From contig NZ_AOHX01000029.1 in NCBI RefSeq assembly GCF_000337735.1, forward strand, positions 1 through 51,657: 51,657 bases of DNA, read 5' to 3'. Each line of letters opens with the position of its first letter. Position 1 is the stretch's first letter. The notes beneath the pieces are model-generated. The model searched no databases and had not been told where the DNA came from. It saw nothing but the letters and a program-made list of their open reading frames with translations. This DNA comes from Natronorubrum sulfidifaciens JCM 14089. GTDB lineage: Archaea; Halobacteriota; Halobacteria; Halobacteriales; Natrialbaceae. Both the position numbers and the translations under genes were made by a program. This document shows positions 34,290-51,657 of this stretch, one piece after another.

Positions 34290-35045
34290 ATGGATCTTCG
34301 AATACAGGGTCCCGGCCCCACGACGCCGTTTCTCAGCGCTCGAGACCTCTTTGAGACCGAACACGAACTGTCGTTGCCCGTCTACGTCCAGTTTCGAGAC
34401 GATCCGGACGAGCGGACCTGGGCCGGCCACTACGACGACCGGCACGTGTTGAATATGTCGAGACAGGCAGCCTCGAGTGCGATGGCCCGTGAACTCGTTC
34501 TCCACGAGCTTGCCCACATGGCCAGACACGAACAGGAACATCCCTCACACATTCAGTCGACCGAAGAAGTCCTCTATCTCGCACTGGCTGGCAAACGCGT
34601 CGAACGGCGCAAGCTCTCTCACTGCTACCAGATCGCAAATCATATGAAAGACATCTACGCCGACGACATCACGCTCGCCGTCGGCCCGGGTCAGAAACTC
34701 CTCTCCTTTCTCGAGTCCAGCCTCGCGATGGCACTCGCCGATCGGCCCGACCCCCCCTCTCGACCGGGCCTCGAGCGCCTCTCTGCGAGCGCAGACCCAG
34801 ATATTACGGCAGTGAACGCGGCGTTCGCGCTGGCGTTGGCCGAGCGTCACGACCTTGTCGACGACGACCACCGGCTGTACGACCTCGCGCACGTAGCCGC
34901 GATGGACGCCCCTCACGTGGATTTTGCGGGCTTCAAACAGCGATTCCGAGAACTCGCACGCGATCCTGACGCCAGTCTGTACCGCCAACTGCTGGTCGAT
35001 GCGACTCGCGCGTACGTCGGTGGTGAGGGGCTGGCTGCGGAGTGA
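34290..35045 (+). CDS. DUF5781-like protein with HExxH motif
   Basis: 251 residues, soluble. LVLHELAHMARHEQEHPSH near residues 70-88 is a zincin HExxH with a further histidine-glutamate pair, and the following helix carries NHMKDIYADDITLAV. The segment DDPDERTWAGHYDDRHVLNM precedes it, as in SprT-like or minigluzincin proteins. I recall the haloarchaeal family as DUF5781; peptidase activity is inferred from the motif only. The C-terminal half (FALALAERHDLVDDDHRLYDLA) is helical with no further signature. The ATG at 34290 is preceded by an in-frame TTG that was not used. It is divergent from fusA and is often its neighbour in haloarchaea, as far as I recall. Confidence 0.72.
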   Translation: MDLRIQGPGPTTPFLSARDLFETEHELSLPVYVQFRDDPDERTWAGHYDDRHVLNMSRQAASSAMARELVLHELAHMARHEQEHPSHIQSTEEVLYLALAGKRVERRKLSHCYQIANHMKDIYADDITLAVGPGQKLLSFLESSLAMALADRPDPPSRPGLERLSASADPDITAVNAAFALALAERHDLVDDDHRLYDLAHVAAMDAPHVDFAGFKQRFRELARDPDASLYRQLLVDATRAYVGGEGLAAE

Positions 35046-35153
35046 CGGGACGGCAGCGTTCGACCACCGACTACGTGCCATCAGACCCGGTCACAGACTC
35101 GCTTCGGCCCGAACACTTAATGTTTGATGGATCCATGTCTGAAACATATATTG

Positions 35154-35879
35154 ATGCTTTCGCGCAATGATCTGGAGGGCGAGTCGAACGAGGAGCGGTT
35201 CTCCGACGGACTCACCCAACTGAAGCGACAGGGTGCCAGTGTCCTCGTCGTCGGCTCCGTCCAACCAGCTCAGCGTCGAAACCTCTGTCGTCGATTACTT
35301 GGGCGGACGACAGTCACACCACGTCGGCGTGTCCTGGTCTCGACGACCGGACAGAGCCATGATGTCTCCGAGCTACTCGGCAGCGACTCCTGTACCGAAA
35401 CAGCACATACGCTCGTTCGCTACGCGACACAGGCTCGTGGCGCTGTCGCGAGTGATGGCGACTCGAGCACTATGGAACCGATCGCGCCCTCGATCGATGA
35501 CTCGCCGGTTACGACCACCACACTCTCCGAGCTTGGAATCGCCATCTCGAGTGCGATCGAAACGTTCGAACTCGAGTCGAACGGGCTTGCACCCGCAGAA
35601 CTCCGTGTCGGCGTCGAATCGCTGGTTCCCTTGCTCGATGAGTACGGCACCGAACGGGTCTTCAAATTCCTCCACCTGACCAACGGCCGGGTTCGGACTG
35701 CCGACGGGATGGTCCACTACCATCTCCCTATGGACCGTGATTCGGATACCGCATCGGTACTGGCACCGCTGTTCGACATCATCATCGAGCTTCGAGAGCA
35801 ACACGGCGTCCCACAGGAACGCTGGTCGATCGACGATGGCGAGTTACACTCTGGTTGGGTTTCGGTCAGCCAGTCGTAG
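35154..35879 (+). CDS. DUF7504-like protein (RecA/KaiC-like, no Walker A)
   Basis: 241 residues. The N-terminal FSDGLTQLKRQGASVLVVGS with VQPAQRRNLCRRLLG is the pattern I recall for the haloarchaeal DUF7504 family, distantly like RecA/KaiC-type domains; the usual GKT/S of a P-loop is absent, so ATP hydrolysis is doubtful. A serine/threonine-rich linker follows, then a conserved end LRVGVESLVPLLDEYGTERV and HLTNGRVRTADGMVHYHLP. The start is uncertain: CTTAAT at 35116-35121 favours the ATG at 35154, while an ATG at 35127 is in frame. The gene ends 69 bases before the first CHAT gene on the same strand, probably one operon, and is the first gene of the accessory cassette. Confidence 0.68.
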   Translation: MLSRNDLEGESNEERFSDGLTQLKRQGASVLVVGSVQPAQRRNLCRRLLGRTTVTPRRRVLVSTTGQSHDVSELLGSDSCTETAHTLVRYATQARGAVASDGDSSTMEPIAPSIDDSPVTTTTLSELGIAISSAIETFELESNGLAPAELRVGVESLVPLLDEYGTERVFKFLHLTNGRVRTADGMVHYHLPMDRDSDTASVLAPLFDIIIELREQHGVPQERWSIDDGELHSGWVSVSQS

Positions 35880-35948
35880 TCATCGATTGCAGACACGAGC
35901 GACGACCTGCGCTCTGTCCCCCGATCACACCGCTGCTCTCTCCACGCT

Positions 35949-38027
35949 ATGAACCCAACTTTCGAGCCAACGAACGACGGACTGGTGATCATCGATCCGA
36001 TCGAACGCCATCGGTATCAACTCACGACACACGAACCGGTCTCGCTCGAGTCGGTGGAGATGGATCAGGTACAGTATCCCGTGGATGCTGCCGTTAGAAC
36101 GACGACGACGATGCTCACACTGCCGACGAGCAACACCGTCTACGTCCGTGACCGCGACGGATCGATGGTTGCAGAAGTCCGACCGACAGAGCAAGTGTCA
36201 CTGTCGCGCGATCAGTATCTCCTCGACCTGTCCGGCCCGTTGAAGGTGTATGCGCATCTCGAAAGTTCGATCCAGATTTACTCAGACACCGACCGAACGT
36301 ACATCGCTCTCGATGACGCAACAGACGTCCGTCTCGGTGCCCGCTCCTATCACCGGCGTCCAGCAGGAACGGTGACGACGACCGCGGACCCGACGGATAT
36401 GATGCGGGCGATTTCGGCGTTCGGTTCGGCGCTGAAGACGACAACGCCTGAACGGTCGTACCCGACGCTCCGTGGACACCCGCCGAAAATAGAACTCGGA
36501 GACAAGTTACACGTTCCGCCGAGATTTGCAACTCCGGAGACCGGCGTCCGGATCGAGATTCCGAAAACAACCCGTCATGTGTTCGTCGTTGCCCCGCTTG
36601 CGTACTACCTCGGGGCGGAGGTCGTTCCCGGACCCACACCGAAACTCGTCACTGAGCGTGGCTTTACCTATGCTCTCGGTGACGAACCCGATTTCGCAGC
36701 GACTGTCGAACGAGTACTCAAACACGTCTTCTTTCTCGACTGTATCGTCCGCACCGAGGGAACGACTCCACTGCCCCTCCACGAACGAGATGCGATCGAA
36801 CCGGATCTCACGTTCGATATCGAGCGTGTGTACGATCAGTCCCTGTCCGCGCAGCTCGAAACGTATCTCACCGACGTCCCGTTCGAGACCGTCACCCGAC
36901 ACCTCCCCGAGTGGTCGCTCGAGACGCGGCTCCAGCCGGTGCCGGAACGCGTCGAGTTTCTCCCGTTCGTTGCCAACAGCCTCTCGAGCGTTCGTGTTCA
37001 AGACGGGACACAGCCACAAACGGAAACACAGCAAACGGTCTCGACACAGGCGATCGAGGCCTTCGTCCGAGGGGATCTCACTCGGAGTAAGCGTTCAGTC
37101 CGCAGTTCCGAACTGGCGTCGAGTTCGGACGAAACCACGTCAGTACCAACGGTCGAACAACGCTGGAACAGCAGCGGGACAACACAGATTACGAGCAACG
37201 CTCCGCTGTCAGCGTTTCACAACAGTATCGGCCGGCAACCAAAGGCGGACCCGATCGAAATCGAGGTCGTCTGTAACGACGCCACAATGCGTGCCGAACT
37301 CGAGACGGTAGACGGCGTCTACGGAACTCGCGAGGAACTCCCGTTCGACGTGACGGTCCATTACGAACTCTCAGCAGCCGAACTCGAGGCCGTCCTCGAG
37401 ACCGACACTGATTTCCTCCACTTCATTGGCCATATCGATGACGGCGGAATGCGATGTTCGGATGGCACGGTAGATGCATCGTTGCTCGAGACGTCCGGTG
37501 CGAAAGCGTTCCTATTGAACGGCTGCCAATCACACGATCAAGGACTCCAACTCATCGAAGCGGGCAGTATTGGTGGTATCGTAACGCACGACGATGTCGT
37601 CAACAGTGGGGCAATACGTGTCGGGAACACGATCGCACGATTGTTGAACCGAGGCTATCCGCTGTACGCGGCGGTGGAGATTGCCCGAAAGAAGAGCGTG
37701 GTTGGTCAACAATACCATATTGTCGGCGATGGAATGATCGCGATTGCACAACCAAAAAAAGGATTCCCCAATATCTGTTTTGTTTCTAGTGACAAGCACT
37801 GTCTGAATCTCCAAATGGAGTCATACATAACCACTGAAATTGGGATTGGTGCAGTGTTCACCCCCCAGCTCGAGGTAGCAGAATCATATTACATAACGCC
37901 AACAAAGACTAACAAGCTCACCACAACAAAGCATCAACTACAGAGCTTTATTGGCTTAGATACGTTTCCGATAATCCTTGACGATCGTGTGGTTTGGAGC
38001 AACGAGGTCGCTATCGATAAACTCTAG
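35949..38027 (+). CDS. CHAT-domain (caspase-like) protein 1
   Basis: 692 residues, no signal peptide or membrane segment. The C-terminal third has the CHAT peptidase layout: a strand ending TDFLHFIGHIDDGG with candidate catalytic H495 (or H491), then AKAFLLNGCQSHDQGLQLIE with candidate nucleophile C526, then GSIGGIVTHDDVV and a helix NTIARLLNRGYPLYAAVEIA. The N-terminal 400 residues form a conserved domain not recognised, starting LVIIDPIERHRYQL and including a hydrophobic VFVVAPLAYYLGAEVVPG. A 22-residue stretch F158-P179 is identical in the paralogue at 39091. Residues about 340-410 are a low-complexity linker, a possible processing site. Target is unknown; the DUF7503-like peptide beside it is a candidate partner. 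Confidence 0.78.
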   Translation: MNPTFEPTNDGLVIIDPIERHRYQLTTHEPVSLESVEMDQVQYPVDAAVRTTTTMLTLPTSNTVYVRDRDGSMVAEVRPTEQVSLSRDQYLLDLSGPLKVYAHLESSIQIYSDTDRTYIALDDATDVRLGARSYHRRPAGTVTTTADPTDMMRAISAFGSALKTTTPERSYPTLRGHPPKIELGDKLHVPPRFATPETGVRIEIPKTTRHVFVVAPLAYYLGAEVVPGPTPKLVTERGFTYALGDEPDFAATVERVLKHVFFLDCIVRTEGTTPLPLHERDAIEPDLTFDIERVYDQSLSAQLETYLTDVPFETVTRHLPEWSLETRLQPVPERVEFLPFVANSLSSVRVQDGTQPQTETQQTVSTQAIEAFVRGDLTRSKRSVRSSELASSSDETTSVPTVEQRWNSSGTTQITSNAPLSAFHNSIGRQPKADPIEIEVVCNDATMRAELETVDGVYGTREELPFDVTVHYELSAAELEAVLETDTDFLHFIGHIDDGGMRCSDGTVDASLLETSGAKAFLLNGCQSHDQGLQLIEAGSIGGIVTHDDVVNSGAIRVGNTIARLLNRGYPLYAAVEIARKKSVVGQQYHIVGDGMIAIAQPKKGFPNICFVSSDKHCLNLQMESYITTEIGIGAVFTPQLEVAESYYITPTKTNKLTTTKHQLQSFIGLDTFPIILDDRVVWSNEVAIDKL

Positions 38028-38030
38028 CTG

Positions 38031-38156
38031 TTACGGTCCCAAGAAGCCAGTGTTGTTTGCTGCAACAGTTCCTGCCTGAGATAGCACCAGCAGGATCGTA
38101 AACAGCGCGCCGATCATTCGTGGGTGATTCTTGAGGTACTGGGTTAGGTCATCCAT
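38031..38156 (-). CDS. DUF7503-like 41-residue membrane peptide
   Basis: 41 residues, too short for routine gene finding. It begins MDDLTQYLKNHPRMIGALFT and continues as a hydrophobic helix ILLVLSQAGTVAANNTGFLGP. The pattern (charged head, N-H-P-R-M-I-G, helix, S-Q-A-G-T, small tail ending GP) matches what I recall as the haloarchaeal DUF7503 family, whose members often lie near DUF7504 and CHAT genes. It could be a signal peptide-like pro-peptide, a membrane anchor or a pore-forming peptide. The stop is three bases from the convergent CHAT stop; the promoter lies in the AT-rich region 38160-38215. Function unknown. Confidence 0.72.
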   Translation of the reverse strand: MDDLTQYLKNHPRMIGALFTILLVLSQAGTVAANNTGFLGP

Positions 38157-38322
38157 GGTACATTGAATACATACTGTCGCGATAATATAAATTTATTTTA
38201 ATATACCATATAAATAGATAGTAGCGTTATGTGTGTAAGAAGTTGTTTGAAACGTAGAGAAGCCACTACCTCCCCGTGAACAGGTGATAGAGGCCCTCGA
38301 ACGTATATTTTGTCCCGACCCA

Positions 38323-38892
38323 CTACTCGTCGAGCAACTGTCGGAGTGACTGATCGAACTCATCAACCGAGAGTTCGTCACGGATCTCGGCTGCTCGTTT
38401 CCGGGACTCATAGAGGTTGCAGACGATCGATTGATACCGATCGGCGGCATCGATATCGGACTGAAGTTCACTCTCAAGGAGTGCGCGCTCGGTCGAGAGC
38501 CTGAAAAATTCGTTCATTGCCTCCTCGTAGGCACCCTGCAAGAGCAGCCGTTCGATCGTCACGCACAATCTCTCGTCCGAGTGCGGTCCGACGAGGAGTT
38601 CGTTAGCACCACGATCAACAGGGTCGTCGGTGGGTACGTCCTCTGAAAGGACGAGAATCTGCGTCTCCGGAGCGCTCTGTTGAAACGCATCGAGTACACC
38701 GCGCGCGTCGGGCGTCTCGAGTCCCCAGTCGAGAACGAGCAGATCGTACCCAGCACCGATCTGCTCGAGAATAGATTGGTCAAAATCGGCCCTGTGAACA
38801 TCGATAGCGACTCGAGACCGGCTAGTCTCCATCTCAGTCAAAGACACCGTGGGATGGACGACGAAGAGTTGGAATGGAGAGTCCTGCAACAC
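38323..38892 (-). CDS. HalX-domain protein with degenerate receiver
   Basis: 189 residues, GTG start. The first 110 residues follow a response-regulator fold: LFVVHPT strand, GYDLLVLDWGLETPDARGVL with the aspartate position kept, QILVLSEDVPTDD, and ELLVGPHSDERL. The acidic pair after strand 1 is replaced by HP and the strand-5 lysine is missing, so canonical phosphorylation is doubtful. The C-terminal YEEAMNEFFRLSTERALLES followed by a helical stretch fits the haloarchaeal HalX domain. It stands between the two CHAT genes on the opposite strand. It may sense or regulate the cassette. A longer open frame on the plus strand here is a shadow of this gene. Confidence 0.75.
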   Translation of the reverse strand: MLQDSPFQLFVVHPTVSLTEMETSRSRVAIDVHRADFDQSILEQIGAGYDLLVLDWGLETPDARGVLDAFQQSAPETQILVLSEDVPTDDPVDRGANELLVGPHSDERLCVTIERLLLQGAYEEAMNEFFRLSTERALLESELQSDIDAADRYQSIVCNLYESRKRAAEIRDELSVDEFDQSLRQLLDE

Positions 38893-39090
38893 AGCTCGTA
38901 CTACTATCCTCTGGTAGATACTATTAAATGTGGCCGGGAGCGGTCAGAACATTACAACGCATACACATATATCGTGGGGCAGACGAACGACGTTCCCGAT
39001 CGGCCACAACGTATATTTTTCTCTATACAGAAATATTTTATAAGACCGAGCGGCGACAACCACGGATATTTTATTATCACACTTTATTTA

Positions 39091-41076
39091 ATGAAACCAA
39101 AATTCAAGTCGACTTCAAGCGGATTACTGATTGTTGATCCGATCGAGCGCAAGCAGTACCGATTCAAAACCGATACACCAGTCACACCGACGCCAGTTGT
39201 TCCCGATCAACTACCGTACCCGATGGACACAACTGTGGAGATTCAGACTGACGGTTTCAGGGTATTAAGTGACAATAGTATATGTATTCGGAACTCGAAC
39301 GGAACCCTCATCACCGAACTCCAGGCAGACGAGAAGGTGAACCTTCCAAAATCAGAGTATATTCTTGACTTCTCTGGACCACTAAAAGTGTATGTCGTCG
39401 TCGAAAGTACAGTCCATGTCCACGAAGGCATTGGGGAGGCACGGATTTCGTTTGGTGAACCGACCTCAGCAGTGATAAGTGCGCGATCGTATCACACATC
39501 ACCGGCGGCAACGATCACAACGACGACAGAACCAAACGATGTGATGCGCGCAGTCTCGATGTTCGGGTCCGCACTGAAAACGACAACGCCCGAGCGATCG
39601 TACCCGACGCTTCGTGGCCATCCTCCAGCTATCGAACTGGGTACTGATGTTGAAATCCCCGATGAGCTTTCACGACCACAGACGGGTGTTCAAATCGAAA
39701 TCCCACCAACGCTCCAGCATACGTTCGTTGTCGCACCGCTTGCGTACTATCTCGCAGCCGAGGTCGTTCCGGGATCGACGCCGCAACTCGTTACGGAGAC
39801 GGGGTACGTCCATCCACTCGAGGGAGAACACGGGTTTGAACGGACGGTCAAGCAGGTGTTCAAGCAAATCTTCTTGCTCGATTGTATCGTTCGAACGGAA
39901 GGAGAGACACCACTGCCACTGTATGAGCGGGAAGCGATCGAGCCTGTTCTCGAGTTGGACATCGAAGAGATATATGAACGACCGATAGCCGAACAGCTCG
40001 AGGCCTATCTGGCGGTTCCGTTTGAGATGATACAGGCATATCTCCCCAAATGGCAGTTTGAAGTTCATCTCGATCCATTTGCAACAGACTCTCTCGAGTT
40101 ACTGCCGTTTCTTATGGACCATCTCCCAACAATCAAAATAGATACTGCTGCAAGCAAGCCGGCTCGAACAGCTTCGACGACGTCTGTTTCAGTATCCCCG
40201 CTACTCCGGCAGTCCTGGGAAGATGGACGAACTGAGATAACAGGGACAGGAATGCTATCAGCGTTCCAAAATAATATCTCCCAGTCGCCGCGAGACGGAC
40301 CACTTGAGATCGAAGTGATCTGTAACGACTCGGAAATGAGTAAAGAACTAGTATCGGTCCATTGTGCATACCGGAATCGGAATGATTTGCCGCTTGATGT
40401 TACTGTTCATTACGACCTTACGACGGATGAACTCGAGAAGGTCTTTTCTCGAGAAAGCGACTTCGTTCATTATATCGGCCATATCGATACCGACGGGTTT
40501 CGGTGTTCGGATGGTACGATCAGCGCAGCACAGATCGAAACGGTTGGCACAAAAGCGTTCATTCTGAACGCGTGTCGATCTTATGAACAGGGGTTACATC
40601 TCATTGAAGCAGGAGCGATTGGCGGGATTGTCACATTCCGTGAGATAGAAAACAGTGTCGCAGTCAATGCAGGACGTACAATTGCCCGTCTCTTGAATTT
40701 TGGACTGCCACTCTACGGGGCATTACACATCCTCCAAAAGATCGGAGATGGTGAGCAACAGTACCATATCGTTGGTGATGGGTCGCTAACAGTCGTTCAG
40801 ACAAGCCAAGGATCGCCGATAGCAGGTACAATCACTCAGGCAGAGGACGGAAACGACATGATTGTTGATTCATATCTATCACCATCCAAAGATCGGGGTA
40901 GTGTGTATAACTTGACTACAAATATGGCTGAATCATATCGCCTAGTGTTTGGTAAAGTGAGTTTACAGTCAGAGTCAACAGCCGACCTCGTGGAACTCCT
41001 CAATACGGAGCCGTTCCCCGTGTTATTCGACGGAGAACTCCGCTGGAGCACCGACATCAAAACGCACGAGCTGTAG
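39091..41076 (+). CDS. CHAT-domain (caspase-like) protein 2
   Basis: 661 residues, a full-length paralogue of the protein at 35949. The candidate dyad is H464 in SDFVHYIGHIDTDG and C495 in KAFILNACRSYEQGLHLIE, with the same 31-residue spacing as in copy 1. N-terminal LLIVDPIERKQYRFKT, HTFVVAPLAYYLAAEVVPG and the identical F158-P179 block align throughout. The gene is visibly more AT-rich than its neighbours (many AAA, ATT, TAT codons), suggesting recent import or weaker codon adaptation. The ATG at 39091 is preceded by a very AT-rich promoter. The upstream open frame to 38680 is antisense to the HalX gene and rejected. It converges on rps7. Confidence 0.78.
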   Translation: MKPKFKSTSSGLLIVDPIERKQYRFKTDTPVTPTPVVPDQLPYPMDTTVEIQTDGFRVLSDNSICIRNSNGTLITELQADEKVNLPKSEYILDFSGPLKVYVVVESTVHVHEGIGEARISFGEPTSAVISARSYHTSPAATITTTTEPNDVMRAVSMFGSALKTTTPERSYPTLRGHPPAIELGTDVEIPDELSRPQTGVQIEIPPTLQHTFVVAPLAYYLAAEVVPGSTPQLVTETGYVHPLEGEHGFERTVKQVFKQIFLLDCIVRTEGETPLPLYEREAIEPVLELDIEEIYERPIAEQLEAYLAVPFEMIQAYLPKWQFEVHLDPFATDSLELLPFLMDHLPTIKIDTAASKPARTASTTSVSVSPLLRQSWEDGRTEITGTGMLSAFQNNISQSPRDGPLEIEVICNDSEMSKELVSVHCAYRNRNDLPLDVTVHYDLTTDELEKVFSRESDFVHYIGHIDTDGFRCSDGTISAAQIETVGTKAFILNACRSYEQGLHLIEAGAIGGIVTFREIENSVAVNAGRTIARLLNFGLPLYGALHILQKIGDGEQQYHIVGDGSLTVVQTSQGSPIAGTITQAEDGNDMIVDSYLSPSKDRGSVYNLTTNMAESYRLVFGKVSLQSESTADLVELLNTEPFPVLFDGELRWSTDIKTHEL

Positions 41077-41116
41077 GCCCACTGCTCGAGAGGCCGGCAC
41101 TGCCGCTCTCGAGTCG

Positions 41117-50911: not shown

Positions 50912-51031
50912 CCTTAAGAAGTTCACCGGGAAAGGAAGAGTTGCAGGAAGCCCGGGTGGTGTAGTGGCCCATCATACAACCCTGTCACGGTTGTGACGCG
51001 GGTTCAAATCCCGCCTCGGGCGCTTTCTCAG
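50912..51031 (+). repeat. 120-bp direct repeat, copy 1 (tRNA-Asp cassette)
   Basis: Identical to 51538-51657. It includes the TATA-like CCTTAAGAAG, a 30-base leader, the whole tRNA-Asp gene and nine bases of 3' flank (CTTTCTCAG). Because promoter, leader and gene are all identical, a recent duplication or gene conversion is likely. Confidence 0.9.
50950..51022 (+). tRNA. tRNA-Asp (GTC), copy 1
   Basis: 73 bases. Acceptor GCCCGGG pairs with CTCGGGC (one G-T pair), discriminator G. The anticodon arm is CAACC-CTGTCAC-GGTTG, giving anticodon GTC, and the T arm is GCGGG-TTCAAAT-CCCGC. CCA is not encoded. The TATA-like CTTAAGAA lies about 35 bases upstream. Confidence 0.97.
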
Positions 51032-51537: not shown

Positions 51538-51657
51538 CCTTAAGAAGTTCACCGGGAAAGGAAGAGTTGCAGGAAGCCCGGGTGGTGTAGTGGCCCATCA
51601 TACAACCCTGTCACGGTTGTGACGCGGGTTCAAATCCCGCCTCGGGCGCTTTCTCAG
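51538..51657 (+). repeat. 120-bp direct repeat, copy 2, at the contig edge
   Basis: Exact copy of 50912-51031. The sequence ends on the last base of the shared segment, which is typical where an assembler stops at a repeat it cannot cross. Confidence 0.9.
51576..51648 (+). tRNA. tRNA-Asp (GTC), copy 2
   Basis: Identical in all 73 bases to the gene at 50950-51022, with the same upstream CTTAAGAA box and leader. Whether it is a true second gene or an assembly echo of the first depends on the repeat at the contig end; the upstream flank (AT-rich CTTATAAATATCTATAAC) is different from that of copy 1, which favours a real second locus. Confidence 0.9.

Follow-up and report, generated by a model that had tools for sequence, protein, structure and literature searches.

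A predicted caspase-like CHAT protease family and its probable micropeptide partner DUF7503 in haloarchaea

The five-gene locus and its neighbours

We identified five genes in an island of the 51,657-nucleotide stretch of Natronorubrum sulfidifaciens JCM 14089 DNA analysed here (the window). They encode a DUF7504 protein, two CHAT proteins (CHAT1 and CHAT2), a DUF7503 micropeptide and a HalX-domain protein. Open reading frames, together with Pfam matches for DUF7504, DUF7503 and HalX, placed all five where an earlier note, made from the sequence alone, had put them. The features are as follows.

35154..35879, forward strand: DUF7504 protein (PF24336, E 2.7e-58), directly 5' of CHAT1; weakly KaiC-like
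35949..38027, forward strand: CHAT1, a predicted 692-residue caspase-like CHAT protease (relatives, AlphaFold model, structural matches)
37431..37433, forward strand: codon of the putative catalytic His495 of CHAT1, conserved without exception in 51 relatives and in 39/39 copies paired with DUF7503
37524..37526, forward strand: codon of the putative catalytic Cys526 of CHAT1, likewise invariant in the 51 relatives and the 39/39 paired copies
38031..38156, reverse strand: DUF7503 micropeptide of 41 residues (PF24335, E 2.1e-21; conservation, tail length), convergent with CHAT1; signal-type, its short tail closing with GP
38186..38205 (approximate bounds), reverse strand: AT-rich BRE/TATA-like promoter element, about 35 bases 5' of the DUF7503 start
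38323..38892, reverse strand: HalX-domain protein with a degenerate receiver (PF08663, E 2.9e-6), 5' of DUF7503 on the same strand; apparent lineage add-on
39091 (ATG)..41076, forward strand: CHAT2, a 661-residue paralogue of CHAT1 that retains H464/C495 and has no peptide of its own; apparent Natrialbaceae duplication

The stop codons of CHAT1 and DUF7503 are 3 bases apart. The island is flanked by DUF5781 on one side and by genes read as rps7 and rps12 on the other, and in many Natrialbaceae the island occupies this same place between DUF5781 and rps7. Its G+C content (window 35000-41100) is 49-60%, compared with about 62% around it. Elsewhere in the window, about 600 bases separate two tRNA-Asp(gtc) genes (50950-51023 and 51576-51649).

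The DUF7504 protein scores 197.8 bits against its Pfam model (curated cut-off 27); its reading frame begins at 35124, and comparison with relatives points to ATG 35154 as the start. DUF7504 is a large family, present in 39/39 genomes, and in 54 of 80 loci a member precedes CHAT and shares its strand. The top PDB matches are KaiC (E ~0.4, non-significant), a predicted kinship that is suggestive only. The HalX domain scores 28 bits (Pfam cut-off 23.2), and its receiver is degenerate, as the note had read it: VHPT in place of VEDE removes the acidic pair and the KP motif has no lysine, with the Asp at the phospho-acceptor position retained. This degenerate form is common to five Natrialbaceae relatives, and Haloferax has, in a comparable position, a HalX regulator that is intact. 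CHAT2 clusters with CHAT1 and its near relatives on the CHAT tree and is a local duplication lacking its own peptide; HalX and CHAT2 are both lineage add-ons found mainly in Natrialbaceae. Given that DUF7504 is only partially associated and that HalX and CHAT2 are lineage-bound, we read the five genes as a core pair of CHAT and DUF7503, often joined by a third gene and in this lineage by two more. A single fixed cassette of all five is not supported.

The CHAT proteins and their predicted fold

Counting close and distant relatives, the CHAT1/CHAT2 family occurs in 179 of 194 Halobacteria genomes, including Haloferax species. Some CHAT/DUF7503 loci are plasmid-borne, and in the three plasmid records checked the CHAT gene is annotated as 'hypothetical protein'. 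In both proteins of the window the putative catalytic His and Cys are 31 residues apart (H495/C526 in CHAT1, H464/C495 in CHAT2), which is the spacing originally reported. C503 is also invariant in the 51 aligned relatives; its codon lies at window 37455-37457, in an FxCxDG motif eight residues past the His, and the residue is invariant in 39/39 paired and in nearly all solo copies.

The CHAT proteins of the window have no match of their own among Pfam, NCBIfam or PADLOC models, and 14 of the 51 relatives match Pfam CHAT (PF12770) weakly (E <= 1; best E 7.2e-5). The AlphaFold model of CHAT1 (pLDDT 85.6, pTM 0.86) consists of a beta-sandwich N-terminal part, a middle alpha/beta part and a predicted active CHAT domain at about residues 401-603. 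The model places H495 after strand 487-493 and C526 after strand 518-524, which is the caspase arrangement. Structural matches to the model include gingipain R (Z 16.2), SAVED-CHAT (Z 15.3; Foldseek E 3e-6), separase (Z 14.8) and Craspase (Z 14.5), as well as caspases, with Z ranging from about 10 to 16 over the whole set. Together, the relatives and the model identify the CHAT1/CHAT2 family as CHAT with a predicted caspase-like fold, consistent with both the identity and the fold that had been proposed. CHAT showed neither a clear membrane segment nor a signal peptide. Folded alone, the N-terminal half of CHAT1 gave a best Foldseek E of 3e-3 and a best Z of about 8 (galactose-mutarotase-like proteins and the YidC periplasmic domain); as these matches are at noise level, we claim no fold for it.

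Phylogenetic analysis of CHAT separated a solo clade of 23 rows without DUF7503 from a second group of 57 rows, 39 of them paired. The DUF7503 label changes 4 times on this tree compared with 27 times in shuffles, and none of 500 shuffles was as low. The solo CHATs of the sister clade retain the catalytic pair without DUF7503, indicating that the peptide is dispensable for some family members. Among unpaired copies, 13 of 45 lack one or both of the His and Cys in the alignment; many of these fall into a single, mostly Haloferacaceae group, and a few are fragments. Position 549 is acidic (D or E) in 89 of 109 paired CHATs, and K or R is common there in solo copies.

Two further observations concern copies without the peptide. 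The mostly Haloferacaceae relatives at loci L198-L205 and L209 have lost both catalytic residues and never occur with DUF7503; from their sequences they are apparent pseudoproteases. The solo clade, which includes a further copy from the genome studied here (G000:C45:9399-11477, L143), sits at a stable locus, where a serine hydroxymethyltransferase-like gene and the CHAT gene are divergent and CHAT is usually followed by a TbsP-like regulator gene (names by sequence reading).

DUF7503 and its pairing with CHAT

The first 39 genomes contain 40 DUF7503 genes, every one convergent with a CHAT gene and separated from its 3' end by 6-146 bp. Across 53 Halobacteria genomes (39 + 14), 58 of 59 DUF7503 copies are convergent with a CHAT gene whose 3' end is no more than 233 bp away, an adjacency that a random gene would show about once in 10,000 by rough estimate. 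Co-occurrence above background, which had been set in advance as a test that could refute the proposed association, is thus strongly borne out. Viewed from the other side, DUF7503 lies downstream of CHAT on the opposite strand in 75 of 80 named CHAT loci. The stop-to-stop gap is 3-20 bases in most pairs, and the adjacency is retained in paralogues and plasmid copies. Shuffled proteins used as a control gave no DUF7503 match. The sole non-convergent DUF7503 found (L213, in genome G049) lies 1.4 kb downstream of CHAT and shares its strand.

DUF7503 is present in 44 of the 53 sampled genomes. Of the nine genomes without it, seven also lack CHAT, one (G002) has only a CHAT of the solo clade and one (G048) has a broken CHAT; the joint presence and absence gives a Fisher p of 2.3e-7, a value that ignores relatedness. 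The phylum sample contains 242 further genomes, none of which yielded a DUF7503 match. The DUF7503 gene is a near-obligate partner of CHAT and, because the pairing is so constant, the two very probably cooperate functionally. APC-corrected mutual information between peptide and CHAT was diffuse and revealed no clear contact. CHAT I544 was prominent for peptide positions 12 and -4, a signal that we do not trust; within-cluster shuffles still carry phylogeny.

The micropeptide scores 75.7 bits against the Pfam DUF7503 model (curated cut-off 27), and family members are 38-45 residues long. They share a juxtamembrane motif, YLxx[HN]P[RK]M, on the presumed inner face, followed by a hydrophobic part with conserved G, L, F, T, Q, G and A; conservation peaks at P13, R/K14, M15, G17, L19, F20, T21, Q28, G30 and A34. 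The tail past Ala34 is 7-10 residues long in 109/109 pairs (8 or 9 in 93) and ends in GP in 97, while its sequence is otherwise variable, and an [AV]xA triplet precedes it in about 100 of the 109. DUF7503 thus looks like a signal-type peptide.

Of 72 loci, 53 have a TATA-like element between -60 and -15 of DUF7503, mostly at -33 to -36, and 4 have one in a control stretch; DUF7503 is therefore most likely transcribed from a promoter of its own. Haloferax loci L081-L124 also contain AT-rich repeats such as TTAATTAAGTTAATT 5' of the TATA-like element, which may be a regulator site. The DUF7503 gene is unlisted in all three plasmid gene tables, which are incomplete, and was detected by HMM in the gap beside CHAT.

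The literature searched, with subscription journals mostly outside the search, contained nothing on DUF7503, DUF7504 or haloarchaeal CHAT, in agreement with the view that CHAT with a small membrane-type peptide is undescribed. The widespread CHAT-micropeptide module is real and, apparently, undescribed.

Possible roles of the pair and comparison with known systems

The reading we favour, with moderate confidence, is that CHAT is a protease that either is regulated by its own membrane peptide, DUF7503, or cleaves it, the two constituting a haloarchaeal protease-micropeptide module. The earlier proposal that a CHAT protein may process the peptide, or be anchored by it, is likewise a hypothesis. 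CHAT would be a cytosolic caspase-fold cysteine protease. DUF7503 would be its dedicated partner, transcribed from its own promoter and inserted in the membrane so that the N-terminus faces inwards and the 7-10 residue tail lies on the outer side. CHAT could touch the peptide through its inner motif, YLxx[HN]P[RK]M, which would most likely serve as a docking site for CHAT at the membrane; there the peptide would act as CHAT regulator or substrate. If CHAT docks in this way, a change in the insertion or processing of the peptide would switch its activity. Regulatory input would probably come from the weakly KaiC-like DUF7504 and, in this lineage, from HalX. The acidic residue at 549 and the P-[RK]-M motif of the peptide hint, as a lead only, at an Arg/Lys specificity like that of separase and gingipain R. 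A counterpoint is that the tail, with its uniform length and the [AV]xA signature before it, may be released outside the cell, which docking alone does not explain.

These two features keep alive an alternative that we consider unlikely, in which DUF7503 is a Sec-exported pro-peptide that is cut after AxA to free a 7-10 residue, Gly-Pro-ended signalling peptide, with CHAT or a partner as the intracellular receiver. Signal peptides are usually less conserved in sequence than the signal-like part of DUF7503, which argues against this alternative, as does the size of CHAT (692 residues, no TPR). The Gly-Pro end and the variable tail sequence nevertheless favour it, and the layout of DUF7503 matches that of RRNPP propeptides (PMC10075063). 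Its broadest form, archaeal peptide communication across most haloarchaea in which such an exported DUF7503 peptide controls an intracellular caspase-like CHAT, is rather unlikely. We regard a role in cell death or antiviral defence as decidedly unlikely: here an infection-triggered CHAT would free or activate a membrane-damaging, gasdermin-like DUF7503, or CHAT would restrain DUF7503 as a hydrophobic toxin. In favour of such a role, bacterial CHAT proteases function in defence, the Craspase and SAVED-CHAT structures match the CHAT1 model and some copies are plasmid-borne. However, the presence of the pair is stable and near-universal in the class (DUF7503 in 44 of 53 genomes), unlike patchy defence systems, which makes such a role less likely, and the neighbours are ribosomal and RNA-polymerase genes at a locus that is stable across Natrialbaceae. 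A reading of the locus as a defence island was rejected: the five proteins matched no PADLOC-DB defence model at E <= 10, and no copies were found in viral contigs or phage records.

It is also conceivable, though very improbable, that there is no functional contact and that DUF7503 is a membrane protein unconnected in function with CHAT, its gene merely being carried next to it, for example through a shared convergent terminator or an antisense arrangement. Convergent genes have no common operon, and the 3-20 base gaps of most pairs imply that the transcript ends overlap, both of which fit this explanation. Against it stands the class-wide adjacency in 58 of 59 copies, preserved in paralogues and on plasmids and accompanied by joint absence. 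CHAT-DUF7503, which occurs in Haloferax species (with a DUF7503 match in H. volcanii), is a concrete and genetically tractable candidate pair for archaeal protease control, cell death or peptide signalling.

Among known systems, TPR-CHAT/Csx29 (Craspase) and SAVED-CHAT share the CHAT caspase-fold protease domain and match well over the CHAT part, which for SAVED-CHAT is limited to residues 430-601 of the CHAT1 model. Csx29 has a TPR N-terminus, whereas the N-terminal half of CHAT1 is predicted to be a beta-sandwich or beta-rich, followed by alpha/beta. Their partners are CRISPR or SAVED, none of which was seen here, where the partner is a 41-residue membrane-type peptide. Separase and gingipain R/K (clan CD) share a two-part caspase-like fold, the gingipain match extending over residues 322-602, with about 8-19% identity over the aligned parts; unlike them, haloarchaeal CHAT is without a visible signal peptide and without cohesin.

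RRNPP pairs such as Rgg/SHP likewise combine a tiny signal-type pro-peptide gene with a gene for a large cytosolic protein, and the peptides share a short, variable C-terminal tail. RRNPP propeptides are small, have a hydrophobic core and a mature part formed by the last 4-10 residues, and are encoded by adjacent genes (PMC10075063). The size of DUF7503 (10-100 residues being the pro-peptide range), its adjacency, [AV]xA site and 7-10 residue tail would fit this pattern, but an RRNPP receptor has TPRs and 250-500 residues, and CHAT has 692 residues and no TPR family match. The haloarchaeal pair further differs in having a CHAT protease as partner, in being nearly always convergent and in being archaeal.

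Finally, caspase-like activity has been reported in Haloferax volcanii without a known gene; this activity is an IETDase, which cuts after Asp (PMC3615174). The CHAT family, with its predicted caspase fold, occurs in Haloferax species and is at most a candidate for this activity. Haloarchaeal caspase-like activity has been reported without a recognised caspase-type gene (PMC3615174), and we describe here a widespread family with a predicted caspase fold and invariant putative catalytic residues.
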